In this document: positions 1,049-15,435 of the stretch, piece by piece
Layout of the letters: every line of letters begins with the position of its first letter
Position numbering within the stretch: position 1 is the first letter of the stretch
DNA from: Verrucomicrobiota bacterium
GTDB lineage: Bacteria; Verrucomicrobiota; Verrucomicrobiae; Limisphaerales; UBA11358
Length of the DNA stretch: 15,575 bases
Direction: 5' to 3'
Assembly (NCBI GenBank): GCA_014860005.1
Contig: JACZKP010000067.1
Span: 1 to 15,575, forward strand
Position numbers and translations under genes: made by a program
Notes under the pieces: model-generated
Database searches by the model: none
Seen by the model: the letters and a program-made list of their open reading frames with translations, nothing else
What the model was told of the DNA's origin: nothing

Positions 1049-2059
1049 GTGCTTAGCCCTTTGCGACCGTTCTCTCTCGCGGCCGGCTTGGTTTCTGCGC
1101 GGCTTGCTTTCGCATTGCGGCTCGCAAATACTGCGACCGTGGAACCGACCGTCACGCAACTCACCGATCAGTTGGTCGCCTCCTACGCGCAAGTGGGCGG
1201 CATCAATCATCTGGATGGCAAGAATCTGCCGTCCAAGCGCGCCATTTGCGAACTGACCACGGACTTGTTGCGCCTGCTGTTTCCGGGCTTCTTCGACGAG
1301 CAGCCGATTCACTCCTCCGAGATCAAGGTCGAAACCGCCTCGCGTTTGGATGCCGTGCTCGGCCCGCTCGAAGACGAAATCCGCAAGAGCCTTGAATACA
1401 ATCCGCCGCCGGAATTCGCCAAGAGCAAGCTACGCTCGGCGGCGCACAGCCTGACACTGGAATTTCTCGGCAGCCTGCCGCGTGTCCGCGAATTGCTGCA
1501 AACCGACATGGAGGCGGCCTTCAACGGCGACCCGGCGGCATTGAGCAAGGAGGAAGTCATTGTCGCGTATCCATTCGTCGAAGCGATCGCCGTGCAACGA
1601 CTCGCGCACGAGTTGTATCTCAAGAACATCGCGCTGATCCCGCGCATCATGACCGAGTGGGCGCACAGTCGCACCGGGATGGACCTGCATCCGGGCGCGC
1701 AAATCGGAGCGCACTTCTTCGTGGACCATTGCACCGGCACGGTGGTGGGCGAAACCAGCATCATTGGCGATCACGTCAAGATGTATCAAGGCGTGGGCCT
1801 CGTGGCCAAGTCTTTGGCGGCAGGCCAGCAGTTGCGCGGACGTCAGCGCCATCCCGTCATCGAGGATCATGTAACGATTTACGCCGGGGCCACGATCATG
1901 GGTGGCGACACGGTGGTCGGCGAAGGCAGCACGATTGGCGCGAACGTTTTTCTGACCAAGAGCGTCCCGCCGTATTCGCTGGTGGTTCAGGAAGACGCCA
2001 ATGTGAAGGTGATGCGCAAGCAGACCCGCGAGAAGAAGGGTGGGGAGTTCAGTATCTGA
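1049..2059 (+). CDS. cysE: Serine O-acetyltransferase, long form
   Basis: The enzyme transfers an acetyl group from acetyl-CoA to L-serine, giving O-acetylserine for cysteine synthesis in the cytoplasm. The protein has 336 residues if the GTG at 1049 is used. Residues about 30-205 form the helical N-terminal domain, and residues 208-325 the left-handed beta-helix of hexapeptide repeats. Visible active-site signatures are GMDLHPGA (Asp212-His214, matching the Asp-His catalytic pair of the E. coli enzyme), DHCTGTVVGET, and RQRHP with His268 in the acetyl-CoA/serine loop. It is longer than the 273-residue E. coli enzyme. GGAGG 8 nt upstream supports GTG 1049, but the first 30 residues look unlike the family and an in-frame GTG at 1139 is a good alternative. 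The last 18 codons plus stop recur at 6549-6605. The gene converges on the XRE regulator that follows. Confidence 0.95.
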   Translation: MLSPLRPFSLAAGLVSARLAFALRLANTATVEPTVTQLTDQLVASYAQVGGINHLDGKNLPSKRAICELTTDLLRLLFPGFFDEQPIHSSEIKVETASRLDAVLGPLEDEIRKSLEYNPPPEFAKSKLRSAAHSLTLEFLGSLPRVRELLQTDMEAAFNGDPAALSKEEVIVAYPFVEAIAVQRLAHELYLKNIALIPRIMTEWAHSRTGMDLHPGAQIGAHFFVDHCTGTVVGETSIIGDHVKMYQGVGLVAKSLAAGQQLRGRQRHPVIEDHVTIYAGATIMGGDTVVGEGSTIGANVFLTKSVPPYSLVVQEDANVKVMRKQTREKKGGEFSI

Positions 2060-2127
2060 CGGTTCTCCGAGGGTCTAAGCAAAGGGATCAAATCCTCTAC
2101 CGCACCGCGCCAGTCAGCAGGTTAGAT

Positions 2128-2439
2128 TCAACATCCCTCGAATATATCGCGCAAGGATGCCTGAAGACTCTTGGCGACTCGTTGGAGTGCATCCACGGAA
2201 ATGTTCTCTTTGCCGGCCTCGACGCGATTGATGAAAACTGTGGAGAGTTCTGCCTTCTCTTCCAGCTTTTCCTGACTGAGCGCGGCCCGCTGGCGGCAGC
2301 GAATGTTCTGGCCCAAAATCAGACGATGTTTTGATCTGGCCGCACGCCGGAAGCCCAAGCAGGAAGAGCCTGATCCTGTTGTTGAGCATACTTTAGTTTC
2401 GCTTGCCTTTTCGGCGGTGGCGGTGGCAATAATACTCAA
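2128..2439 (-). CDS. XRE-family helix-turn-helix transcriptional regulator
   Basis: This small DNA-binding protein of up to 103 residues has its HTH_3/Cro-CI domain at about residues 40-101. The domain runs from LGQNIRCRQRAALSQEKLEE, with the LSQEKL helix, through the recognition-helix region STVFINRVEAGKENIS, to the terminal DALQRVAKSLQASLRDIF. All are typical of stand-alone XRE regulators. The listed start is a TTG at 2439 with no clear ribosome-binding site. The first 40 residues are low-complexity and do not fit the family, so a start nearer the domain, such as an in-frame TTG just before LGQN, is equally possible. It is convergent with cysE (68 bp between stops) and divergent from paralogue A, so autoregulation or control of that gene is plausible but inferred. 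It lies inside the segment bracketed by the two cysE tails. Confidence 0.8.
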   Translation of the reverse strand: MSIIATATAEKASETKVCSTTGSGSSCLGFRRAARSKHRLILGQNIRCRQRAALSQEKLEEKAELSTVFINRVEAGKENISVDALQRVAKSLQASLRDIFEGC

Positions 2440-2476
2440 GCCTTGGCCGGCAGATCTTCAGGCACTCGACCAAGGC
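2440..2476. promoter_or_regulatory. Candidate operator: 7-bp inverted repeat between divergent genes
   Basis: GCCTTGG (2440-2446) and CCAAGGC (2470-2476) are exact inverted arms separated by 23 bp. They lie in the 84-bp gap between the XRE regulator and the signal-peptide gene at 2524. XRE repressors often bind palindromes in their own divergent promoter regions, so this is a reasonable candidate site. The long spacer and the short arms make chance quite possible. Confidence 0.25.
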
Positions 2477-2523
2477 AAGTAGGGGCTTTGGGAATGGATA
2501 AAACCACATCAAAGGACGGGTTT

Positions 2524-5500
2524 ATGAAACAAGGAAAGGATCAATCCACGTACCGGAACAGCGTCGCCATCGGGCTGGTGCTGCTGCTTTGGAATTGCAC
2601 CGCAGGCTATGCGGTTGACCGGTATGTCTACCTGGAGGGTGGCCACGTGCCACCGTTCACCGACTGGGCCAGTGCGGCCACCAACATTCAAGAAGCCATA
2701 GATGCCTCGGTTGAGGGAGATGTGATTTGGGTGACCAACGGTGTTTACGCTGTCGGCGGCAAGGTCATGGCCGGCGATTTAACCAACCGGGTGGCCTTGG
2801 ACAAGGCGCTCACGGTGCGCAGTGTCAACGGACCAACGTTGACGACGATCAAGGGCCAATGGGATGCCGCGAACACGAACGGGCTGGGTGCGGTGCGGTG
2901 CGCGTGGCTGACGAACGGGGCGACGTTGAGTGGCTTTACACTTTTGGGCGGGGCGACGCGTCTGTCCAGCCTAAGCGATACCGCCGGCGGCGGTGGCGCG
3001 TGGTGTAGCTCGAATGCCGTGATTGCGAACTGCATTATCAAATCCAACTCAGCAGGCTACGGTGGCGGTGTTTTTCAAGGCGTCCTGAATAATTGCTTAC
3101 TCAGCGGAAACAGATCCGTTAACAGCGGGGGTGGCGCATATAACAGCGTGTTGAACAATTGCTCGGTCGTCAGCAATTCCGGTTGGGGAATCGTTTCTCA
3201 ACCGTTCAATCTCGCCAGGCTCACAAATTCTATCGTGTACTTCAACACGCCCGGGAATTATCAGGGGAGCCTTTTTTCATATTGTTGTACGACACCACTG
3301 CCCGCTGGAGTTGGCAATATGGCCAATGGCCCGCAGTTGCTCAGTGACGGCGTCCACCTGACCAGTACTTCCGCGTGCCGCGGGGCGGGCACAAACCTGG
3401 TCAGCGGTACCGACATTGACGGCCAGACCTGGGCTGATCCGCCTTCGATTGGCTGCGACGAATGGCAGCCTGAACCAGTGATCTTCGACCAACCCCAAGT
3501 CCTACTCACCGGCAATCCTGTCGGTTTCCGCCTCACAGTGGGCGTTGTCGGACAGGAACCGTTTGTTTACTGGTGGACCAAAGATGGGGCGCTGATCGAG
3601 AACGACGACCGTTTTGCTGGCGCGCGCACACTAAATTTGCAGGCACGCGGGGTTGAACCATCGGATGCGGGCGGTTATCAGGTCGTTGTCAGCAACGTCT
3701 TTGGAGTCGTTACCAGTTCCGTGGCAAATGTCGTGATCCACCATGTTGACGCGACCGCAGTGGCCCCGCAGCCGCCTTACCTGAACTGGGGGGACGCCGC
3801 GACCAACATTCAGAATGCCATTGACGTGGCGCTGCCCGGAGGAATTGTCCTGGTGGCCAGCGGAACGTATGGGACAGGCGGGAAGGTGATGGGCGGCGAT
3901 CTGACCAATCGCGTCGCCCTGGACAAAGCAATACTCGTCCAGAGCCTGAGCGGATCGCAAGCCACAATCATCCAAGGTCTATGGAATCCTGTCGTCACAA
4001 ACGGTCCCGCAGCCGTACGTTGCGCCTGGCTGACCAACGGGGCAATCTTGAGCGGCTTCACGCTGCGAGGCGGGGCCACACGATCAGTCTCGCCCCCGGT
4101 GAATCAGCAAACGAGTGGTGGCGGCGTGTGGGGAGCCTCCAGCAATGCCACGGTAGCCAATTGTGCAATCGTGGACAACTCGGCCTCCTATCAAGGTGGC
4201 GGTGCCTATCAGATCACTCTTATCAACAGCACCGTTATGGGCAACCGGGCGGTGGGTTCCGGTACCCCAGGCGCCGGCGTAGGGTTAGCTGGCTCGGGCG
4301 GCGGTGCCGCCCGCTGTAATTTGATCAACTGCGTCATCACCATGAACTCCGCCGAGCAGGGCGAGGCCGGTGGGGTGTTAAACAGCAACTTGAAGAACTG
4401 CGCACTCACGAAGAATTCCTCTTTTATGAATGGGGGAGCCGCAAGTTCCGGCACGCTCGTCAACTGCACGGTTACTGGCAACACCTCTTCCGGATACTCC
4501 TCCGGTTACGGCTCGGCAGTGTATGGCGCTTCCCTGACCAATTGCCTCGTTTGGGGGAATCTTCACCGAACCACGAATCCCAACACGAACTATGCGAATT
4601 GCAACCTGAGCTACTGCAATTCCGTTCCCCTGCCGACCGGCGAGGGAAATCTCAGTATTAACCCGCAATTGTTGGCCGATGGCGTGCATGCATTGGAAAC
4701 CTCTCCGTGTCGGGGCGCCGGCACAAATGAGGTGGTCAGCGGTACAGACATTGACGGACAACCTTGGGAGAATCCACCGTCCATCGGCTGTGACGAATGG
4801 CACCCGCAACCGGCCATTATTGGGGAACCCAAGCTTCAAGTCTGGGGCAATCCGGCCCGCCTGCTTATTAGCGGGGTCGTCGTCGCTGGCGAGGAGCCGT
4901 TCAGCATCTGGTGGAGCAAGGACGGCTCCGTGCTGGAAGAAAGTCCGCGCTACAACTCGACACAAACGATCAATCTGATCGTGAACGATTTAGGGCCGTT
5001 GGATGCTGGGTTTTACCAGATGGTGGCTAGCAATGCGTTCGGGGTTGCCACGAGTGCAGTCGTACAAGTAGTCGTTCGTTGCGTTGACGGTGCTGGTCCT
5101 TCGCCTGCCAGTCCGTTTTCGGACTGGGCCACCGCTGCCACCACAATTCAAGACGCGATTGACGCCGCCTCACCTGGCGAAATCATCCTCGTCACCAACG
5201 GTGTTTATGCAACCGGCGGCAAAGTAATGGCGGGAGAATTGATGAACCGCGTCGCGTTGGACAAACCGTTGACCGTCGCCAGTGTCAATGGCGCCACAGC
5301 GACGGTCATCGAGGGGGCGTGGGATCCGGTAACGACCAACGGCCCGCTGGCGGTGCGCGGGGCTTGGCTGACCGACGGTGCAATTTTGAGCGGGTTTACG
5401 TTGCAAGGTGGTGCCACGCTCGCAACCGGAGACTCCCTGAGTGATTCAGGTCCCTTGCAATGCGGCGGCGGGGTTTGGTGCGTTTCCAGCAACGCCGTGG

Positions 5501-6552
5501 TGGCCAATTGCGTGCTGACCGGCAACGCGGCTTCCGCTTCCGGCGGCGGGGCGTTTCAGGGAACACTCGAAAACTCTGTGGTGACCAACAACACCGCCCG
5601 TTTCGGTGGCGGTCTAAGTTATGGCATGGCGAGGAATTGTCTCATCTCATTTAACGAGGCGCTCTATCAAGGAGGCGGTGCTTACCGCAGTTCGCTAAAC
5701 AACTGCACGGTCACGTTCAACTACACTTGTTTCAGTTGCACCCCGTCCAGCGGAGCGGGGACGTATTCCGGGACTACGCGCAACAGCATCGTCCTGTTCA
5801 ACAGCCTCGGGCGTTACGGCTACCAGTACGCGAATTACTATGCTCCCGGCGCTCAGTATGCCTATTGTCTGACGGACCCCGCAGCGTCGGGTCCTGGCAA
5901 CATCACCGGCAGTCCGCAATTCCTCGATTTGCATCACGTCTCCATCCACTCGCCCTGCCGCGGTGCGGGCAGTCCGCTGTACGCGACTGGCACGGACCTT
6001 GACGGCGAGCCTTGGGCCAATCCGCCCTCGATCGGCTGTGACGAAGTGGTGGAATCCGGTCTGACCGGTCCGTTAAGCGTGGGCATATATCTGGATCGAG
6101 CGCTGGAGCGGACGAACCTGTTGGTCAATCGACCGGTCTTTTTTGGCGCCCAGATCACCGGCCGCGTTGCTTGGTACGAGTGGTTGTATGGTGACGGAAC
6201 GGCACCCACGACTTCCGGCATCCATATCTGGACCAATCCGGGCCCCTACGCGGTCACTTTGACAGCGTACAACACGGATTATCCAGACGGCGTCTCCACG
6301 AATCTATTGGTTGACATAGTTCTGCCGGATCAGCCGCTTCTGCAATCAGCGGCGATTACGCCCGGCGGATTTCAATTCGAGTTCTCAGGTCAATACGAAG
6401 CTCGTTACTCGGTCGAAATGACGACCAACCTGACGCCGCCGATTAACTGGCAGGTGCTGCAAACCATCTTCTTCAGCACCGGTGGCGTGCATCAAATCAG
6501 CGACTCAAGGGCAACCAATTCAGCCGGTTTTTATCGGGTGCGGGCACAATGA
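2524..6552 (+). CDS. Secreted three-module beta-helix/Ig-like/PKD protein (paralogue A)
   Basis: This is a large exported protein of 1,342 residues from the ATG at 2524, chosen because AAGGA lies 7 nt upstream and a good Sec signal peptide follows (residues 1-30, likely cleavage after AGYA). The frame extends upstream to 2443. Three modules follow, at about 33-315, 405-760 and 852-1175. Each opens with a segment like WASAATNIQEAIDA, runs through beta-helix coils with GGGA turns and Asn-Cys pairs, and closes with CRGAG and PPSIGCDEW (choice-of-anchor-Q style). Ig-like domains at about 318-405 and 763-853 carry WWTKDG and DAGGYQVVVSN. A PKD-like domain (about 1180-1270, WLYGDG) and a final 70-residue domain ending FYRVRAQ complete it. 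A surface or secreted adhesive or polysaccharide-binding role is inferred. No catalytic site is evident. Its stop overlaps the cysE relic. Confidence 0.9.
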   Translation: MKQGKDQSTYRNSVAIGLVLLLWNCTAGYAVDRYVYLEGGHVPPFTDWASAATNIQEAIDASVEGDVIWVTNGVYAVGGKVMAGDLTNRVALDKALTVRSVNGPTLTTIKGQWDAANTNGLGAVRCAWLTNGATLSGFTLLGGATRLSSLSDTAGGGGAWCSSNAVIANCIIKSNSAGYGGGVFQGVLNNCLLSGNRSVNSGGGAYNSVLNNCSVVSNSGWGIVSQPFNLARLTNSIVYFNTPGNYQGSLFSYCCTTPLPAGVGNMANGPQLLSDGVHLTSTSACRGAGTNLVSGTDIDGQTWADPPSIGCDEWQPEPVIFDQPQVLLTGNPVGFRLTVGVVGQEPFVYWWTKDGALIENDDRFAGARTLNLQARGVEPSDAGGYQVVVSNVFGVVTSSVANVVIHHVDATAVAPQPPYLNWGDAATNIQNAIDVALPGGIVLVASGTYGTGGKVMGGDLTNRVALDKAILVQSLSGSQATIIQGLWNPVVTNGPAAVRCAWLTNGAILSGFTLRGGATRSVSPPVNQQTSGGGVWGASSNATVANCAIVDNSASYQGGGAYQITLINSTVMGNRAVGSGTPGAGVGLAGSGGGAARCNLINCVITMNSAEQGEAGGVLNSNLKNCALTKNSSFMNGGAASSGTLVNCTVTGNTSSGYSSGYGSAVYGASLTNCLVWGNLHRTTNPNTNYANCNLSYCNSVPLPTGEGNLSINPQLLADGVHALETSPCRGAGTNEVVSGTDIDGQPWENPPSIGCDEWHPQPAIIGEPKLQVWGNPARLLISGVVVAGEEPFSIWWSKDGSVLEESPRYNSTQTINLIVNDLGPLDAGFYQMVASNAFGVATSAVVQVVVRCVDGAGPSPASPFSDWATAATTIQDAIDAASPGEIILVTNGVYATGGKVMAGELMNRVALDKPLTVASVNGATATVIEGAWDPVTTNGPLAVRGAWLTDGAILSGFTLQGGATLATGDSLSDSGPLQCGGGVWCVSSNAVVANCVLTGNAASASGGGAFQGTLENSVVTNNTARFGGGLSYGMARNCLISFNEALYQGGGAYRSSLNNCTVTFNYTCFSCTPSSGAGTYSGTTRNSIVLFNSLGRYGYQYANYYAPGAQYAYCLTDPAASGPGNITGSPQFLDLHHVSIHSPCRGAGSPLYATGTDLDGEPWANPPSIGCDEVVESGLTGPLSVGIYLDRALERTNLLVNRPVFFGAQITGRVAWYEWLYGDGTAPTTSGIHIWTNPGPYAVTLTAYNTDYPDGVSTNLLVDIVLPDQPLLQSAAITPGGFQFEFSGQYEARYSVEMTTNLTPPINWQVLQTIFFSTGGVHQISDSRATNSAGFYRVRAQ
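2694..2831 (+). repeat. 138-bp block shared with paralogue B (copy 1)
   Basis: This block aligns without gaps to 6841-6978, with 7 mismatches in 138 positions. It includes a 48-bp identical run (2694-2741) and a second identical run of about 69 bp (2755-2823). Flanking sequence and the other modules of both genes are much more diverged, including at silent sites. It encodes the start of the first beta-helix module. Confidence 0.9.
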
Positions 6553-6605
6553 AGGTGAGGCGCAAGCCGACCCGGGAGAAGCAGGGTGGTGAGTTCAGTA
6601 TTTGA
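6549..6605 (+). pseudogene. Relic of the cysE 3' end (18 codons plus stop)
   Basis: These 57 bases align without gaps to the end of cysE (2003-2059) at 50 of 57 positions. They read in frame as MKVRRKPTREKQGGEFSI and stop, against VKVMRKQTREKKGGEFSI in cysE. Three differences are silent; the other four change an amino acid. The copy starts exactly where paralogue A stops, the two overlapping as ATGA. It is too short to be a gene. It is best read as the scar of a duplication, or as an attachment-type repeat left by insertion at the cysE 3' end. The sequence after the two stops (2060 onward and 6606 onward) is not visibly similar. Confidence 0.85.
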
Positions 6606-6691
6606 ATCAAGTGTCACATCGCGGATGAGGATTTGGCAATGGCATCATCAATCATGAAATCAGCAATCTGGATCGGCAAGGAGTCATTACG

Positions 6692-9556
6692 ATGAATACA
6701 ACCCAACTGGCATTGGCCTGCACCTTCGCACTGGCGCTCTCGTTTCCGTCGGCCTCGGCGACCGAGCGATTTGTTTCACCGGCAGGCGGACACATACCAC
6801 CGTTCAATACTTGGACAGACGCTGCCACAAATATCCAGGCAGCCATAGATGCCTCGGTTGAGGGAGATGTGATTTGGGTGACCAACGGCCTTTATGCGAC
6901 CGGCGGCAAGGTCATGGCCGGCGATTTAACCAACCGGGTGGCCTTGGACAAGGCGCTCACGGTGCGCAGCGTCAACGGGCCGGCAGTCACAATCATACAA
7001 GGCGAATGGGATCCAATTACGACGAATGGTCCGGCAGCGGTGCGAGGTGCCTGGCTGACGAACGGGGCGATATTGAGCGGTTTCACACTGACAGGCGGCG
7101 CCACTCGGGACAGCGGCGATACCTTCACTTTGCGGTCAGGAGGGGGAGTGTGGTCCGCTTCTACCGGGGCCAGTGTGCAAGATTGTTTCATTGTGGGAAA
7201 CAGCGCTCGCATAGCCGGTGCCGGAGCGTACCAGGGTTTCCTCGACAGGTGTGTGATTTCCAATAACGCCAGCGGGAACTATGGTGGCGGGGCCGCATCC
7301 AGCGCGCTCCTCAATAGCTACATCGCGTATAATCGTGCCGAGGGTGGCGCCGGCGTACGGGGTTCGATGCTCACCAATTGTGCCGTCATCCGGAATTCCG
7401 CGGATTTCTCGGGCGGCGGAGCCTCTCAGAGCCTGCTGGTTAACTGCACGCTCACCGGGAACTCTGCTCGTAGTGGTGCGGGAGCACAGTGGGGCGGCGG
7501 GGGTGGGTTGATCGTCAACAGCGTCCTGTGGGACAATATTGCGACCCTCACCGGCTTGCCGGACAATCACTCCGGCTACCTGGGTGTGAATGTCAGCCAC
7601 ACTTGCACCACGCCGCTGCTCGCTGGCACAGGGAACATCTCTGCCAATCCGCAGTTGCTGCCGGACGGAGTGCATTTGACCGAAACCTCACCTTGCCGTG
7701 GTGCGGGTAATCCCGCTCATACCACGGGCACGGATATTGACGGCCAGAGCTGGGAGAATCCGCCCGCCATCGGATGTGATGAATGGCGACCACAGCCGTT
7801 GATGGTCGCTGACCCGCAGCCAAGATTGGCCGTCGGCAACGGGCAAGCCAGAATCACGGCCGCGGCGGCAGGACTTGAACCCCTCCAGTGGCAATGGACC
7901 AAGGACGGTATGCCACTGGAGGATGGGGTGCGCTATACCTCCGCCAACACCGCAAGCCTCCTGATCAATCAATTCGGTGTGGAGGATGCCGGCGCCTATC
8001 AGGTCGTGGCCAGCAATGCCTACGGAATGGCCACCAGCCAGGTGGTGCAAGTGGGTATTGCCTGCGTGGATGGAGCGAGCTTGACTCCCGCCCCACCTTA
8101 TTCGAGTTGGGAATCGGCCGCCGCCAATATTCAGGATGCAGTGGATGTGGCCGGGCCGACGGATGTGGTGCTGGTGACAAATGGCATTTACGCGACCGGA
8201 GGTCGGGTCATGCTCGGAGATTTGACCAATCGCGTGGTGGTGGACAAACCGCTGCTGGTCATGAGCGTGAACGGTCCCGAAGTTACAATCATTCAGGGAC
8301 AATGGGATCCCGTGGACAAGGTCGGCCCTGCCGCCGCGCGTTGCGTCTGGTTGGAGAACGGAGCGGCGCTGAGTGGCTTTACGCTGCGGGACGGCGCAAC
8401 CAGTGCCAGTCAAGGCAGTGGGGTACTGGATACCAGTGGCGGAGGCGTGCGCTGTGCATCCACCAACGCCGTATTGGCCAACTGCGTGATCACCAACTGC
8501 TATGCCAGCCTTTATGGCGGGGGAGCGATGGGCGGTACGCTGAGTCACTGTAAAGTGGTTGGCAATACTTCCTTGGGGAGCGGAGGTGGCGCGTATGGTA
8601 GTTTGGTCGTCAACTCTGAACTCATCGCCAACCGCGCAGGAGGCGGTGGCGGGGGCCTTGCTTTTGGCTGGCTCCACAATTCCGCAATAACGGGCAACTT
8701 CGCCGGCGGAACCGGTGGTGGTGTTAACAATGCGCGTCTGGTCAATTGCACTTTGCTGGGGAACACCGCCGGTTTATCCGGCGGGGGCGCGGCATCGAGT
8801 GCCATGACCAATTGTATTGCCTTTTTCAACACGGCGTCCGCGTTTCCAAATGTTTACGTAACAGTTCTCTACTATTCCTGCACAACGCCGCTGGCCTCCG
8901 GTCCCGGCAATATCGCCGACGATCCTGAGTTCGTTGATGGATTCCACCTGGCGCCTTCCTCGCCCTGCCGCGGAACGGGAAATGCCCTGGTTGCGACCGG
9001 CACAGATTTGGAAGGCGAGCCGTGGGCCAACCCACCTTCAATGGGCTGCGACGAGGTGTGGGAATCGGGCATGGTCGGCCCACTCGCGGTCGGCCTTACC
9101 GCAGGCTATTCGGAAGTGGCAGCCTACGGTGCCATGCCGCTGTACGGTCAGGTCGAGGGGCGTGCCTCACGCTTGGAGTGGTCGTTTGGCGAGGGTTTGG
9201 TTTTTACCAACCTGAGCTATGTGACATCACACGTATGGACAAACGCCGGCGAGTATCAGGTAACGTTCACGGCGTACAACGCGGACAATGCCGGCGGCGC
9301 CACCACCAATCTGGTGGTGCATGTCGTGCCGCTGGTGCCGCCACCATTGACTGCGGAAGGGCTTAACGGAACCAACTTCAGCCTGTCGTTTCCCGGGCAG
9401 TCGGGGGTTACTTACCTGATCGAGCAAACGACCAATCTTGTGCCGCCCGTGACGTGGCAGACGGTGCGAACGATCCTGAGCACCGGTGCCCTGATGCAGG
9501 TGATGGACCCCCGGGCAACCAACGCGATGAGGTTCTATCGCGTGCGGACGCCGTAA
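6692..9556 (+). CDS. Secreted two-module beta-helix/Ig-like/PKD protein (paralogue B)
   Basis: This exported protein of 954 residues starts with an ATG preceded 8 nt earlier by AAGGAG. A Sec signal peptide covers residues 1-23 (cleavage after SASA). Beta-helix module 1 ends near residue 365 with DIDGQSWENPPAIGCDEW. An Ig-like domain lies at about 370-458 (QWTKDG, DAGAYQVVASNAYG). Module 2 ends near residue 789 with PPSMGCDEV, followed by a PKD-like domain (about 793-885, WSFGEG) and a C-terminal domain ending FYRVRTP. The order matches paralogue A with one module plus one Ig-like domain fewer. Coils repeat a GGG turn followed by an Asn-Cys pair and a hydrophobic-Asn ending, resembling the GGA(I/L/V)/FxxN repeats of chlamydial polymorphic membrane proteins. 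The role is probably surface-exposed or released; no enzymatic motif was found. The 86 bp upstream of the start hold nothing else recognisable. Confidence 0.9.
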   Translation: MNTTQLALACTFALALSFPSASATERFVSPAGGHIPPFNTWTDAATNIQAAIDASVEGDVIWVTNGLYATGGKVMAGDLTNRVALDKALTVRSVNGPAVTIIQGEWDPITTNGPAAVRGAWLTNGAILSGFTLTGGATRDSGDTFTLRSGGGVWSASTGASVQDCFIVGNSARIAGAGAYQGFLDRCVISNNASGNYGGGAASSALLNSYIAYNRAEGGAGVRGSMLTNCAVIRNSADFSGGGASQSLLVNCTLTGNSARSGAGAQWGGGGGLIVNSVLWDNIATLTGLPDNHSGYLGVNVSHTCTTPLLAGTGNISANPQLLPDGVHLTETSPCRGAGNPAHTTGTDIDGQSWENPPAIGCDEWRPQPLMVADPQPRLAVGNGQARITAAAAGLEPLQWQWTKDGMPLEDGVRYTSANTASLLINQFGVEDAGAYQVVASNAYGMATSQVVQVGIACVDGASLTPAPPYSSWESAAANIQDAVDVAGPTDVVLVTNGIYATGGRVMLGDLTNRVVVDKPLLVMSVNGPEVTIIQGQWDPVDKVGPAAARCVWLENGAALSGFTLRDGATSASQGSGVLDTSGGGVRCASTNAVLANCVITNCYASLYGGGAMGGTLSHCKVVGNTSLGSGGGAYGSLVVNSELIANRAGGGGGGLAFGWLHNSAITGNFAGGTGGGVNNARLVNCTLLGNTAGLSGGGAASSAMTNCIAFFNTASAFPNVYVTVLYYSCTTPLASGPGNIADDPEFVDGFHLAPSSPCRGTGNALVATGTDLEGEPWANPPSMGCDEVWESGMVGPLAVGLTAGYSEVAAYGAMPLYGQVEGRASRLEWSFGEGLVFTNLSYVTSHVWTNAGEYQVTFTAYNADNAGGATTNLVVHVVPLVPPPLTAEGLNGTNFSLSFPGQSGVTYLIEQTTNLVPPVTWQTVRTILSTGALMQVMDPRATNAMRFYRVRTP
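6841..6978 (+). repeat. 138-bp block shared with paralogue A (copy 2)
   Basis: This is the partner of 2694-2831, about 95% identical in DNA and in the same reading frame and domain position. Six of the seven differences fall in one 13-bp cluster and the seventh lies near the 3' end, so both long flanks of the cluster are identical. That pattern suggests recent sequence exchange rather than slow parallel conservation. Confidence 0.9.
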
Positions 9557-9686: not shown

Positions 9687-10484
9687 TCAAGCCGCAACCG
9701 CGGCATGGGCGAGGACGGATTCCTCCAGGTTCAACAGATCCGCAATCGACTTCAAGATGCCGCTGGGTTGATACGGATAGCGCGCCACGTCCTCGCGTTT
9801 CGTTGAACCGGTCAAAACCAAATAGGCCGGGATGCCCAGTTCCACTGCGCCGCGAATGTCCGTTTCCATTGTGTCCCCGATCATCACGGTTTCATCTGTG
9901 CGCAAGCCGAGCCGTTTCCGCGCCATGACGAACATGAAAGGATTCGGCTTGCCGAGACAGTAGGCCTGGGTGTTGGTGGCGCTTTCGAGCAATGCCACCA
10001 GCGCGCCGGTGCCGGGCCGCGGACCGGCATCGGTGGGACACCACGTATCGGGATTGGTGGCCACGAGCCGGCTGCCTTTGGCCAGCAGGCGCATCGCTTT
10101 CTCCATCAATTCAAAACTCAACACCCGCCCTTCGCCCACCACCACAAAGTCCGGCTTGATGGAATCGAACGCGATGCCCACTTCCTGCAACGCGATGATC
10201 AAGCCGCCTTCCCCGATGACGAACGCGCTGCTGGTCGGCTGCTGCCGCACCAAAAAATCCGCGGTGCAATGCGCAGCGGTGTAAAAGTTCTTCCAGGAAA
10301 CTTTTAGTCCATAGTGGCTGAATTTCGCCACGAGGTCCTTGGGCGAACGTTCGGAGTTGTTCGTGAGAAAAAGAAATGGCGTGCCGGTACGCTGCAATTG
10401 TTGAATGAACTCCACCGCGCCGGGGATCATGGTGGAGCCCCGGTAAATCACGCCGTCCATGTCTATCAAGTAGCCTTTACTCAT
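9687..10484 (-). CDS. HAD-superfamily hydrolase, subclass IIA (NagD-like)
   Basis: This is a cytoplasmic Mg-dependent phosphatase of 265 residues from the ATG at 10484. That start sits just before the first HAD motif and has an AGGA about 10 nt upstream; an upstream extension to 10547 is unlikely. Motif I is DMDGVIYRG, with the nucleophile Asp8 and the acid/base Asp10. Motif II is TNNS (42-45). The C2-type cap lies between about 75 and 175, and the GKPNPFMF segment supplies Lys180. Motif IV is IGDTMETD, with Asp205 and Asp210 binding metal. Length and motif order match NagD, p-nitrophenylphosphatase and phosphoglycolate phosphatase relatives, so the substrate (nucleotide monophosphate, phosphoglycolate or another small phosphate ester) cannot be told from sequence. 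It converges on paralogue B, with 130 bp between stops, and is divergent from the mfd remnant. Confidence 0.93.
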   Translation of the reverse strand: MSKGYLIDMDGVIYRGSTMIPGAVEFIQQLQRTGTPFLFLTNNSERSPKDLVAKFSHYGLKVSWKNFYTAAHCTADFLVRQQPTSSAFVIGEGGLIIALQEVGIAFDSIKPDFVVVGEGRVLSFELMEKAMRLLAKGSRLVATNPDTWCPTDAGPRPGTGALVALLESATNTQAYCLGKPNPFMFVMARKRLGLRTDETVMIGDTMETDIRGAVELGIPAYLVLTGSTKREDVARYPYQPSGILKSIADLLNLEESVLAHAAVAA

Positions 10485-10601
10485 TCCCTGATTCCTAGCA
10501 GACGCTGTTCCAGCGGTGCGATGGCGGGAAGACGGAAACCTTCGCACGCGGGCGGTGCTGGTGCTTGACGCCCAGCCCGGTCACTGCGATGGTCCGCACG
10601 C

Positions 10602-10802
10602 TTGGCGCAGGAATTCCAAGTCTTGGCGGCAGGCCGTTTGTTCGCCCGGGTCGCTGAAACTCCCGCCGTGCAATCCCTTGCCCGGCGACTGGAGTCGGGT
10701 GGCGCCTTGTCCTGTCCGGGCGTCCCAACGGCAGCCCAGCCATTCTTCACGGCGTTGTTGCGACATCTTTTTCCCGACCGCCCCATCGTCGTCGTCACCG
10801 AC
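10602..10802 (+). pseudogene. mfd: Probable truncated N-terminus of transcription-repair coupling factor
   Basis: Read from a TTG at 10602, these 67 codons look like the start of Mfd: VQSLARRLESGG, then LSCPGVPTAAQPFFTALL and RLFP-like HLFPDRPIVVVTD. In Mfd this segment begins the UvrB-like N-terminal region and is normally followed by a segment of the type GLKxQESFQQD. Here the family-like sequence stops at VVVTD, and the remaining frame to 10943 (KQRSWVVATRLQ onward) is unlike it. None of the helicase or RNA-polymerase-interaction domains follow, so it would be a dead fragment of a protein normally over 1,000 residues long. The identification rests on memory of family style, without alignment. 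A full mfd may exist elsewhere. The break lies about 130 bp before the end of the convergent giant gene. Confidence 0.4.
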
Positions 10803-10929: not shown

Positions 10930-13900
10930 TCACGGCGGGGTGATGGCCAGCCGATAGAACCGCAGGTTGCCAGCAGCGGGTTCCTCGATGTTCATTGTCG
11001 TTCCATCACCGACGATGAGGGCGACTAGCGGCTCCCAACCCGGAGCGCCCAGGTTGGTCTTGAATTGCATCTGGTATTTCCACCCGAGTTTGGTCGCCCA
11101 AGCGATGCGTAGTTTGCCCCCCGTCACGAGGGTGGTCTCCAGACGAGTCGTCCCGGAGTCCGCGATGGTCACCTGGTAATCTTCGACTTTGCCATCGGGC
11201 GCAGGACCGTAAAACGACAGGCCCGGTACGGTGCTGAATCGAAAACGGGCGTAGGTGATTCCGGGCACAGCGGCGGCGGGAATCGGCACTTGAAGCACGT
11301 TGAAACCCGCCGACAATGCGACGTTTTGAATGACGTGCTCCTCGGGTTGGGCGAAATCTCCGTTGGCATTCAGATCAATCCAGCCGTTGAGATAACCGGC
11401 AACTGAAGCCTGCACCCGGATCTCGGAGAGCGGCGTGCCGTAGCGAAGCGGGCCCAGGAACTCCACGCCGTCTTCGTCATTCAAATTGTCCGCGTCGTCG
11501 CCCGAGGCATTCAGCGGATTGATGACCGCATCAGACTCTCCGTCAATCAAAGCTCCGAGGCGAATGGCTGGGTTAACGAGGTGGCGCGCTCCGTTTGCTG
11601 CCAATGTGGTGCGATGCTGGAGACCGGGTGCGTCGCCAAAATCAGCGAGCGGCGCGGATTGCACGGTGGCGCAGGCGGAAAATTCCGAGGTATCGCCGGT
11701 CAATCTGTTGATGGCAATCGCGGTGACACACTCACCCGCGCCGAGGCCGGGCAAAGGCATCGTGAAACGCGCGCGACCCTGGCTATCAGTCGTAAATAAT
11801 ACCTCATCATCCCACGTCTCGCCTTCCCCGAAGCCGGAAGGATCCGCCGAGCTGTTGATGTAAAATTCGATCCGGAACGGTGTGTTCGGGGTGCTCCGCA
11901 GATGCACGAACATCGCCTGGAGCACGCCGCCATAGAGCGTAAGTTCCGGGAAGTTCTGCAAACGGTTGGGGCCGGTGTCGGCATCGTCCGGGTCATTCGG
12001 CGTGGGGCCGTCGCCGCCAAGATCAATGCCCAACAGTCCATTGCTGAAAATCGAATTGGCGGTGATTTCGTTTTGATCGCCGCGCACTGCGTGCGGGACC
12101 GCTACGCCCGCACCTGAATTGTGAGCGATCAAATTTTGGGAACCGATAAGGTTGCCGCTGGCCGCCAGGATCCGGATGCCATCGCCGCCGTTCCCGGCGG
12201 GTGCATCATTCCCGTTTACGCCGATCCGGTTGCGGGTGATCCGATGACCGGCGTTGTCCTGGCCAACCCCGGGCGTGCCATCAATCAGAATTCCGTGCCC
12301 TCCGTTGCCGCTGATGACATTGCCCAACGGGGCAAGTCCGACCAGCGGGGCAGCTCCGCCGACAAAGGCATTGCGCGCGCCTTCAAGCCGGATGCCATTG
12401 GCGCCGTTTCCGAGGGCAAGCACTCCCGGAGCGTTCAGGCCGACGGTGTTTCGGTGAATTCGGTTGCCATCCGAGCCGACGCCCTTGATGTGAATGCCGT
12501 CCGTGAGATTGCCGGAAATAAGATTCGCGGTTTCGGGGTCGGGCCCGCCAATGAGGTTGCCGGGAGTTTCCACCAGTGAAATTCCCGCGTTATTGGCCAA
12601 GGCGCCCAGGCCGGTGGTATTGACGCCAATGCGGTTGCCCTGAATCAGATTCTCGGAAGCGACGTTCGCCGGCTCGGCGGGCGGGGATTCAATCAGGATT
12701 CCCGACAGAAAGTTTCCCGAGATGAGATTGCCCAGAGCAGCAACCCCCAGATTACCCAAGCCAGCCGGGCTACCTCCAATGACGTTGTTACGCCCGCCGC
12801 GAATATGAATGCCATGAAGACGGTTGGGAATGGCTGCCATGCCGGCGGCATTGACCCCGATTGAGTTCGCTTCGATCTGGTTGAACCTGGCCCCGGCGCC
12901 CATCAGCAGAATTCCACTCTCGTGGTTTCCCGAAATGAGGTTGCGCAGTTTTACGTCGCTGCCTCCAATCAGATTGTTTTGGCGGTGCAGCAAAACGCCG
13001 TTGCGAACGTTGCCCACGAGGAGACTGCCGCCCGGAGAGGTTCCAAGAATGTTGCCCTCGATGCGGTTTTCGTCCGTGTGACTCTCGATCCCGTTGAAGC
13101 TGTTTCCAGAAATGATATTGCCCGGCGGCGATCCCGGAGTAGCAGTAGCCCCGCCGATGCGAATACCCTTCGCGTCGGAAATCAGAATCCCGTTGCGGCG
13201 ATTGGGAATGGCCGCGTTCGCGGCGGCGTTGAGACCAATGATATTGCCTTCGATTCGATTGCGCACCGTGCCGGCACCCTGGATCTGAATTCCTTGAAGA
13301 TTCCCCGAGATGACGTTGCGGGAGGCAATCGTCGGGCCGCCGATGACATTGCCGGAAGCCCCGCCGAACAGGCGGACGCCATCGGCAGCGGTGGGATTGG
13401 CCGGACTGGCGGCGCCGGTTTTATCGGTGCCGATGTAGTTTCCCAGCACGCGATTGTTGCTAGATCCAGCGCCCTCGATGGTGATGTTTGCTCCGCCCGT
13501 TCCGGCCTTGCCGTTGCCCGTAATGACGTTACGGACGGCGCTGTTCAGGCCGCCGATGACGTTGTTGGTGGAATTGAGGATGTGAATGCCGGACTCGCTT
13601 GCGCCCGCGAGAGTCACTCCATCGGTGCGCAGGCCAATGAAATTCGCTTCGATCACATTACCTCCTCTTCCTTGAATGAAGACGCCGTCCTTGCCGAAAT
13701 TGACGATCGCCAGACCGCGGATGGCAGTGTCGCCCGCCAGCAGATTAAAACCGTTGAGCGGATTCTGCCCCAGCGCGGTTCCGTTCACTTCCACGACCGG
13801 ATTGCCCGGGGAATATCCCGGTTGGCTGGTGGCATCAATGGCAGTTGGCAGGACAATGTCAGGTAAAGCAGTGGCTGGAGTGATCACGTGCGGACCAGCG

Positions 13901-15435
13901 CCGGGAATATCGAACAGGATTGTCGAAAAGTTCCGGTTGGTGCTGGCGGCTTCTTCCATGGCAGCGCGCAACGTCACTTCCAACCGTCCGTCCTGAAGCG
14001 TTTGGCCGGTCCAAGCGATGCCATCGCCGGGACTGGTATCCGGCAAATCACCGGTGGAGTTCACCACGCCTGGCATGTCACAAGTGGAGAACTCGCTGGT
14101 GTTTCCCGCGTTGTCGGTGGAGGTCATGGTCAGGGCGAAGTGTTCACCCGGGATCGTCACGGTGAAGTCCAGTCGTTCGCTGAACGGAACGGTCACCTGA
14201 TGCAAGAGGAATTCGCCCTCGCCGAAACCGCGCGGATTACATTGCGTGTTCCAGAAGTACTCGACGGTGAACGGCGGGTTGAGATTGGAGTTGATGCGCG
14301 CCCGGACAATGGTGTTGCCGTTGGTGCGCTGGATTGAGATGAACTCCGGGGAGCGTTGCGAAAGGTTCGGGCCGGTTCCGGGCGTAAGAAAACGATTGTG
14401 GCTGACGCCGTTATCGCCAAGGTCAATGCCAAGCCCGTTGTACCGGATTTCATTCTGAAGAATGGAGTGGCGGCTGGTGCTCGCACCGGCGATGACAACG
14501 CCGCTCCCGTTTGCCGAGATGAGATTGCCGCGCCCCGGCCCTCCAATGCGCGTAAGCAACGAGCCACCATCAATGCGAATGCCGTCGGACCAATTAGCCT
14601 CGATATAGTTTTTTTCCAAGATGTTCCCGCTCGCCCGGTTATTCCCGGTGCTGGTGATGTGAATGCCGGTTGAATTTAACGCGATACCGTTGGTGGCAAC
14701 GATGACATTGTCACAGGTATTGAGCAGAATTCCCAGATTGCAGTTCAAGATGACATTGCCAATGACTCGGTTTGCCGGCCCGCCGAAATTATCCCCCTGA
14801 ATGGTAATGCCGGGGCCGTGATTTCCGACGAGCCAGTTTTGGTCCTCCGGTTGCAGACCACCAATGAGGCAATCCACCACGTTCAAGCCCGGCACGAATT
14901 GTGAGGGCGCCTGCCCCATCACAATGCCCCTCCCGTTGCCCAACTCATAAATGTGCTCGTTGAAATCGTTCCCGCCGACATTATTTCCCGTGATGCGCAC
15001 CCCCTCGGTGTAGCTGCCCATGGCAAAGTTCGAGTACACCTCAATGCCGGCATCTTTATTGGCGGACACCAGGTTGTTGCGGATGACAACGCCGTTCACC
15101 CCAAGGATGGTGATGCCTGCGCCGTTGCCCTGAGGAGCTTCGTTTGCTGGATTAATGCCGATCTCGCAGTATTCGATGATCACATTGGTCGGCGCTCCCG
15201 AAACGGCATGTCCGGCGACATAAATCCCAGACCGCTGGAAATTAATGATGACCAAATCGGAGATTCTGACGCCTGACGACCCGGCACTCTCAATCCGCAA
15301 TCCGTGGGTGTCACCCGCGAAGGCTCCGTCAATGACGACATAAGAATTCTGCGGGCCAATAATGGAACAGCGCACGGGCGGCAGCGGGGAAAGGGGCCGT
15401 ATCGTGACTGAACTCGAAAATGAACTCGAAAACAC
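10930..15435 (-). CDS. Giant parallel beta-helix/GEVED-domain protein, probably 5'-truncated
   Basis: The open frame has 1,501 codons from a GTG at 15435 with no ribosome-binding site and no signal peptide. Module 1 (1 to about 455) and module 2 (about 460-1250) are right-handed beta-helices with coils of the form NxIGG, NLISGN, GI.I.G, N.I.G. Each ends in a beta-sandwich-like segment: FTVEYFWN..CNPRGFGEGE in module 1 and FRIEFYIN..ADPSGFGEGE in module 2. Module 2 opens with a CSLREA-like segment (TLRAAMEEAASTNRN) and then ITPATALPDIVLP. Module 1 begins only at the equivalent IRPLSPLPPV, so at least about 45 residues plus any export signal are missing. A GEVED-like domain (about 1258-1425, ending DGKVEDYQV) and a C-terminal domain ending FYRLAITPP, like those of A and B, follow. 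An IS end lies directly upstream. A surface protein by origin; expression now is doubtful. Confidence 0.85.
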   Translation of the reverse strand: MFSSSFSSSVTIRPLSPLPPVRCSIIGPQNSYVVIDGAFAGDTHGLRIESAGSSGVRISDLVIINFQRSGIYVAGHAVSGAPTNVIIEYCEIGINPANEAPQGNGAGITILGVNGVVIRNNLVSANKDAGIEVYSNFAMGSYTEGVRITGNNVGGNDFNEHIYELGNGRGIVMGQAPSQFVPGLNVVDCLIGGLQPEDQNWLVGNHGPGITIQGDNFGGPANRVIGNVILNCNLGILLNTCDNVIVATNGIALNSTGIHITSTGNNRASGNILEKNYIEANWSDGIRIDGGSLLTRIGGPGRGNLISANGSGVVIAGASTSRHSILQNEIRYNGLGIDLGDNGVSHNRFLTPGTGPNLSQRSPEFISIQRTNGNTIVRARINSNLNPPFTVEYFWNTQCNPRGFGEGEFLLHQVTVPFSERLDFTVTIPGEHFALTMTSTDNAGNTSEFSTCDMPGVVNSTGDLPDTSPGDGIAWTGQTLQDGRLEVTLRAAMEEAASTNRNFSTILFDIPGAGPHVITPATALPDIVLPTAIDATSQPGYSPGNPVVEVNGTALGQNPLNGFNLLAGDTAIRGLAIVNFGKDGVFIQGRGGNVIEANFIGLRTDGVTLAGASESGIHILNSTNNVIGGLNSAVRNVITGNGKAGTGGANITIEGAGSSNNRVLGNYIGTDKTGAASPANPTAADGVRLFGGASGNVIGGPTIASRNVISGNLQGIQIQGAGTVRNRIEGNIIGLNAAANAAIPNRRNGILISDAKGIRIGGATATPGSPPGNIISGNSFNGIESHTDENRIEGNILGTSPGGSLLVGNVRNGVLLHRQNNLIGGSDVKLRNLISGNHESGILLMGAGARFNQIEANSIGVNAAGMAAIPNRLHGIHIRGGRNNVIGGSPAGLGNLGVAALGNLISGNFLSGILIESPPAEPANVASENLIQGNRIGVNTTGLGALANNAGISLVETPGNLIGGPDPETANLISGNLTDGIHIKGVGSDGNRIHRNTVGLNAPGVLALGNGANGIRLEGARNAFVGGAAPLVGLAPLGNVISGNGGHGILIDGTPGVGQDNAGHRITRNRIGVNGNDAPAGNGGDGIRILAASGNLIGSQNLIAHNSGAGVAVPHAVRGDQNEITANSIFSNGLLGIDLGGDGPTPNDPDDADTGPNRLQNFPELTLYGGVLQAMFVHLRSTPNTPFRIEFYINSSADPSGFGEGETWDDEVLFTTDSQGRARFTMPLPGLGAGECVTAIAINRLTGDTSEFSACATVQSAPLADFGDAPGLQHRTTLAANGARHLVNPAIRLGALIDGESDAVINPLNASGDDADNLNDEDGVEFLGPLRYGTPLSEIRVQASVAGYLNGWIDLNANGDFAQPEEHVIQNVALSAGFNVLQVPIPAAAVPGITYARFRFSTVPGLSFYGPAPDGKVEDYQVTIADSGTTRLETTLVTGGKLRIAWATKLGWKYQMQFKTNLGAPGWEPLVALIVGDGTTMNIEEPAAGNLRFYRLAITPP
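15409..15432. repeat. Perfect 12-bp tandem repeat at the 5' end of the giant gene
   Basis: TGAACTCGAAAA occurs twice in a row (15409-15420 and 15421-15432). On the coding strand it encodes the repeated FSSS of the N-terminus. It lies against the presumed IS target duplication and keeps the frame. It may reflect slippage or the native sequence. Confidence 0.9.

Follow-up and report, generated by a model that had tools for sequence, protein, structure and literature searches.

A second copy of the cysE 3' end beside a secreted Ig/PKD paralogue is most likely a scar of local gene shuffling

In a 15,575-nucleotide stretch of DNA from a Verrucomicrobiota bacterium (contig JACZKP010000067.1, hereafter the window), the last 57 bp of the cysteine biosynthesis gene cysE recur behind gene A, the first of two paralogues (A and B) for secreted-type proteins with Ig and PKD repeats. 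The copy is most likely a scar of local gene shuffling and not the footprint of a mobile island. We consider it likely that it is a partial duplicate of the lineage's own cysE 3' end, left by local recombination in a shuffling array of secreted Ig/PKD genes. The scar is real, local and of an ordinary kind, and little speaks for a functional reading. As a scar, it is of use for dating and ordering the shuffling in a family of large secreted proteins that many genomes of this order possess, and it is a warning that gene-end direct repeats, once diverged, need not mark an island.

The two copies (Table 1), grouped as direct repeat family D13, were compared by pairwise alignment. They are identical at 50 of 57 positions, without gaps and with the stop codon kept, as the initial annotation of this DNA had claimed from the letters. 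In a random window of the same base composition, a binomial estimate predicts about 3e-14 ungapped pairs of such kind. The initial annotation was right to see in the second copy a true relic of a cysE end, not a chance match, and a sign that the DNA had been rearranged. The copy had been described as abutting the stop codon of gene A. It does lie at that stop, but it contains the TGA of A (6550-6552) instead of merely abutting it. The first base of the copy, 6549, is a mismatch to cysE, and identity to cysE starts exactly at the stop codon of A. The encoded peptides, VKVMRKQTREKKGGEFSI for the cysE tail and MKVRRKPTREKQGGEFSI for the copy, each followed by a stop, differ by V/M, M/R, Q/P and K/Q, and three further changes are silent. 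The XRE regulator and the 4-kb gene reported between the copies were both recovered, as a gene with a Pfam HTH_3 domain and as gene A.

The copied tail is closest to that of its own lineage. In a comparison with 120 cysE homologues (among the matches listed, of 7997), the tail nearest to the copy was that of protein P0001, with 3 differences in 17 residues; the next best had 5. P0001 is a 99%-identical sister of the window's CysE and has the same tail, and the commonest tails among these 120 homologues are of the SKKDREKKGGDFHI kind. Among 297 proteins, which include the 120 homologues, the tail pattern RKxTREKxGGEF was found in P0001 only; it is also present in the window and in TGS_VER2, a metagenome-assembled genome of a Verrucomicrobiia bacterium. 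At the DNA level, 49 of 57 positions of the copy are identical to the cysE of TGS_VER2, and identity to five other family relatives is 68-74%. A three-way comparison of the window cysE, the TGS_VER2 cysE and the copy gave 48 equal sites, 6 private to the copy, 2 common to window and copy, and 1 common to TGS_VER2 and copy. The closeness of the copy peptide to the own-lineage tail points to a local duplicate and not to an import from a distant cysE, and the site counts suggest copying within the lineage, around the time when the window and TGS_VER2 parted. To the initial annotation, the tail had looked like one from a related but different cysE, a view that finds no support with a sister of the window's own cysE as the nearest match.

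TGS_VER2 has the gene order cysE-A-(long B)-HAD, where the last join is deduced, and lacks the tail copy: none was found within the approximately 300 nt read after the stop codon of A. From the cysE stop to the open reading frame (ORF) of A it has 178 bp without a helix-turn-helix (HTH) gene. Collinear blocks between the window and TGS_VER2 contig C36 cover 1127-2069 and 2378-6562, with about 60 unmatched nucleotides between them in TGS_VER2. From the stop of A, TGS_VER2 continues as TGAAGGTGAAGCG, which matches cysE at 12 of 13 positions and the window copy at 12 of 13, and is then unlike the tail. The score of a local alignment between this gap and the cysE tail was equalled in 9 of 2000 shuffles, and that with the copy in 67 of 2000. 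Past the 13 bases, the gap between A and B has no similarity to the tail, since 785 and 821 of 2000 shuffles did as well. The 14-mer ATGAAGGTGARGCG occurs exactly once in TGS_VER2, at the end of A; with up to one mismatch it was found at 8 places, compared with 3 for a reversed-pattern control. Contig C36 ends inside the 5' part of an A-like gene, which matches the 5' part of A with 81% identity over 282 nt, and a second contig, C71, carries a longer B gene together with the HAD gene.

Searches for further copies gave few matches. The degenerate pattern REK-x-GGEF-x-I-stop had two matches in the window, one in the genome contigs (the cysE end of TGS_VER2), and none in the viral contigs. Among 12 genomes of the family the cysE end was matched in 5, each time at cysE, together with one partial match of 40 nt in TGS_VER2. 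A search of 320 genomes of the order with the copy plus its spacer, in which the top two candidates of each genome received a score, matched the tail only at the TGS_VER2 cysE. TGS_VER2 searched alone at an expectation value (E) up to 10 yielded 18 matches, namely cysE and 17 of 16-40 nt; the best of the 17 (contig C3, 40 nt, 85%) lies in a non-cysE ORF. We take the repeat as not dispersed. A repetitive extragenic palindromic (REP) or miniature inverted-repeat transposable element (MITE)-like repeat was rejected, as no copies were present at many unrelated places in the genomes searched. Dispersal behind unrelated genes, which the initial annotation had named as counting against its reading, was not seen in the genome contigs, the 12 family genomes or the 320 order genomes (two candidates scored in each of the latter). 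Another of the 17 matches in TGS_VER2, a 19-nt exact match to the cysE tail on contig C5, lies near the start of a gene that is FtsH-like by eye, at AQKKGGEF in the N-terminus of its product, and is probably due to chance.

Of eleven further genomes in the family, five (G002, G003, G010, G011, and G012) were examined for 3.5-14.5 kb downstream of cysE; G004-G009 and another cysE-like place in G010 lay outside this comparison. The stretches examined contained no A, B, HAD, or XRE gene at E up to 1e-5, so that within this sample the arrangement is confined to the lineage. A universal and ancestral arrangement, also considered at the outset, is not what these five relatives display. In G012, the HAD relative and cysE are on different contigs, and an informative empty site, with cysE joined directly to the right flank, was found in none of the five. 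Relatives of the XRE gene (E up to 1e-10) occur in 31 of the 320 order genomes, and the nearest one in TGS_VER2 (56%) is on another contig. It is therefore a common kind of small regulator and was rejected as a travelling companion.

The surroundings of the copy are mosaic. Pfam detected Ig and PKD domains in both A and B. Both belong to a large family: of 7993 candidates scored, 2459 proved to be relatives of B alone (E up to 0.001), and a relative of the first 106 residues of B was found in 54 of the 320 order genomes (E up to 1e-20). Residues 1-100 of B are 98-100% identical to P0123 and 42-72% to P0121, and residues 101-350 are 98-100% identical to P0121 and 72-88% to P0123. Beyond residue 350, P0121 is nearer in most 50-residue bins, with the exceptions of 451-500 (P0123 90%, P0121 88%) and 801-850 (92% and 90%). 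B thus has the appearance of a chimera in which two paralogue types meet near residue 100. P0123 and P0133, judged by equal lengths of the longest contig, seem to share one contig of 19,701 bp. Residues 1-104 of A match the N-terminus of P0121 at 99 of 104 positions, P0133 at 96, and A of TGS_VER2 at 91. Given the mosaic 5' ends of A and B, the copy lies at a place of exchange between paralogue ends. As an observation in its own right, the 5' ends of A and of the B_long-type genes (window 2524-2835 and P0121 residues 1-104) look homogenised by gene conversion per lineage.

The age of the copy was compared with that of the paralogues. Synonymous divergence (dS, NG86 method, codons aligned to gaps dropped beforehand) between the window and TGS_VER2 was 0.24 for A, 0.31 for the body of B, and 0.50 for cysE. 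YN00 gave 0.20 for A and 0.66 for cysE, and no value for the body of B or for A versus B. In the window, A and B differ by a dS of about 2.5, which is saturated, with 467 of 921 residues identical. The changes found only in the copy amount to 6 of 57 (0.105). This makes the copy about as old as the split between the window and TGS_VER2 (half of 0.24-0.50 per branch) and far younger than the split between A and B. The duplication that gave rise to A and B therefore cannot have produced the copy, unless the copy was held constant.

The sequence of events that we favour is as follows. At a stretch of approximately 13 matching bases, the end of cysE and that of gene A would have undergone strand exchange or template switching, by which the stop codon of A became joined to the cysE tail. 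The DNA now 3' of the copy, i.e. the spacer and the first 100 codons of B, would derive from a third paralogue type and would have been fused to a B_long-type body. We infer the order of these events, the short-homology step, and the lack of a present function of the copy. Fragments of gene ends can be left behind where illegitimate or short-homology recombination acts close to tandem paralogues. Like them, the copy is a partial end of a neighbouring gene, with a short match at the join and a chimeric paralogue adjoining. Unlike them, it stems from the unrelated housekeeping gene cysE and has kept an open frame and its stop. Either the window lineage gained the tail or TGS_VER2 lost all but 13 bases of an older one; that the copy has changed so little slightly favours a gain. 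Literature searches for such repeats and for beta-helix arrays in Verrucomicrobia gave nothing relevant, as judged by titles and the openings of abstracts.

Several points weigh against a scar of this kind. The A-B junction of TGS_VER2 is split over contigs C36 and C71 with no overlap found between their ends, so that the adjacency is deduced, and TGS_VER2 is the sole relative with gene A beside cysE that was read as DNA. Its 13 bases could equally be what decay has left of a full copy of greater age. Weak extra copies could escape a search that scores two candidates per genome. A blastn search with 6606-6765 (word 7, E up to 0.1) gave only the self-match in the window, TGS_VER2, and the family stretches compared, and the 320 genomes gave only five other matches (22-45 nt, E 4.5e-4 to 9.2e-4 per genome), taken as chance; with the spacer not traced to a source, the donor side of this join is conjectural. 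Finally, the last six residues and the stop of the copy are unchanged, for which the chance of survival is approximately 16% when 5 random substitutions are simulated.

Among the alternatives, an import by recombination is unlikely but accounts for several of the observations. A relative's segment of cysE end, XRE gene, and A would have recombined into a chromosome in which cysE stood directly before a P0123-type gene. The left copy would then be the donor tail and the right copy the recipient's original tail, severed from its gene. Such an event predicts two same-lineage tails with few differences and the right copy before the next gene, as observed; a P0123-type 5' end does follow the copy, and the XRE stretch is missing between cysE and A in TGS_VER2. 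However, no cysE directly before a P0123-type gene was found in the five relatives within the stretches read downstream (same E threshold), and no mobility gene was detected by Pfam or NCBIfam among seven window proteins. The 13 matching bases after A in TGS_VER2 would moreover become a coincidence or a remnant.

A function for the copy as a decoy peptide is very unlikely. The 18-codon ORF would have been kept and translated by coupling to A, the ATG of the copy overlapping the stop of A as ATGA, and its C-terminal GGEFSI would mimic the tail with which CysE reaches into the active site of CysK. We give no more credence to a selected micro-gene, coupled in translation to the giant secreted repeat protein, whose free 18-residue CysE tail would occupy that active site and so tie the expression of the giant protein to cysteine synthesis. 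The CysE tail docks in CysK through its C-terminal isoleucine, which has been described as essential for this binding (PMC12895370), and the contact-dependent growth inhibition (CDI) toxin CdiA-CT is described as requiring a C-terminal isoleucine to bind CysK (PMC4961446); a decoy peptide is therefore conceivable. The frame is open, the stop and the last six residues are intact, and the final six sense codons contain two changes, neither of which alters a residue. Both copies end in GGEFSI and the stop, 118 of the 120 listed cysE homologues end in isoleucine, and a CysK/CysM-family match was found in 12 of 12 family genomes, above the cut-off in 11. On the other hand, GGEFSI with its stop survived in 16% of the simulated cases, an open frame with stop in 65%, and both in 13%. 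TGS_VER2 has a different 11-codon frame at this place, MKVKRRQLKSQ, without an isoleucine tail, and no ribosome-binding site was seen by eye upstream of 6549. For an isolated CysE decapeptide, the reported binding is approximately 250-fold weaker than that of full E. coli CysE (PMC12895370). The copy resembles CdiA-CT of UPEC536 in that an isoleucine tail outside CysE could bind CysK (PMC4961446), and it differs in being a DNA-level cysE copy with a free 18-codon frame and no toxin end. If translated, it would be the docking peptide of a metabolic enzyme that an accident at the DNA level had turned into a free-standing micro-gene.

An old tandem duplication of a unit of cysE tail plus gene, proposed initially as the origin of A and B, is highly improbable. 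Each tandem paralogue is preceded by a cysE tail, and the gene after A in TGS_VER2 resembles A in its 5' part. This similarity is explained by exchange between paralogues, however, and the proposal is contradicted by the age gap, the tail divergence of 6 private changes in 57 not being comparable to the dS between A and B, and by the spacers after the two tails, which share nothing detectable.

Genomic islands integrate at the 3' ends of genes such as those for tRNA and tmRNA or guaA, and additional genes enclosed by direct repeats of such an end are their classical picture. An empty site, which such islands leave in some relatives, was not found in the five genomes read downstream of cysE. 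The site-specific island at the cysE 3' end that had been suggested on this likeness is nevertheless extremely unlikely, because no integrase or recombinase domain was found in seven window proteins (Pfam, NCBIfam) or in two (PHROGs), the second repeat has diverged at 7 of 57 positions and lies at the stop of A, and the same A adjoins cysE in TGS_VER2 without a second repeat.

An RNA element or terminator was likewise rejected. In RNA folding, neither copy surpassed its shuffles (at 57 nt, z was -0.91 and -0.42; at 118 nt, 0.56 and 0.53), the window had no Rfam match at the gathering threshold, and no terminator-like site was present at either copy, with one at 6754-6766 inside the start of B.

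Table 1. Features of the window around cysE and the copy of its 3' end
Feature	Position	Strand	Basis or remark
cysE (serine O-acetyltransferase, 306 amino acids, GTG start)	1139..2059	+	homologue names, NCBIfam; 97% amino acid identity in TGS_VER2
Source-type copy of the repeat, last 57 bp of cysE	2003-2059	+	
Window-specific stretch between cysE and A, contains HTH core of XRE-type gene	2070..2377	.	no counterpart in TGS_VER2
HTH (XRE-type) gene ORF	2128-2439	minus	Pfam HTH_3
Paralogue A, secreted-type Ig/PKD repeat protein	2524..6552	+	90% amino acid identity in TGS_VER2, 96% to P0133
Copy of cysE 3' end, 50/57	6549..6605	+	also open 18-codon ORF, ATG...TGA
13-base stretch, candidate join or short-homology site	6550..6562	+	12/13 to 3' end of A in TGS_VER2, 12/13 to cysE
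Spacer 3' of the copy	6606..6691	.	no match to post-cysE spacer or to compared TGS_VER2 stretches
Paralogue B, apparent chimera	6692..9556	+	residues 1-100 P0123-like, 101-350 P0121-like (B_long type)
HAD-IIA family hydrolase, right neighbour	9687..10547	-	collinear with TGS_VER2

Several homologues of the window's CysE carry the source name serine O-acetyltransferase. Its NCBIfam scores, 142.5 bits for TIGR01172 (cut-off 210.65) and 144 for EpsC (cut-off 150), were both under the cut-off. The ORF of gene A opens at TTG 2443, and its likely start is ATG 2524, as in the homologue P0133.

Collinearity with TGS_VER2 begins 12 nt upstream of the cysE start; to the left of cysE (1-1126), nothing detectable is common with the TGS_VER2 stretch compared. 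In that part, the ORF at 498-956 had no match in Pfam, PHROG, or NCBIfam, and a 28-nt inverted repeat with a 13-nt loop (393-461), with GTTAGGC near 478-484, is attC-like by eye only. At the right side, an mfd-like 5' end (10602-10802, name by eye) matches TGS_VER2 contig C71, after which homology ends. The mfd-like gene seems cut short next to a giant minus-strand beta-helix/GEVED gene at 10930-15435.

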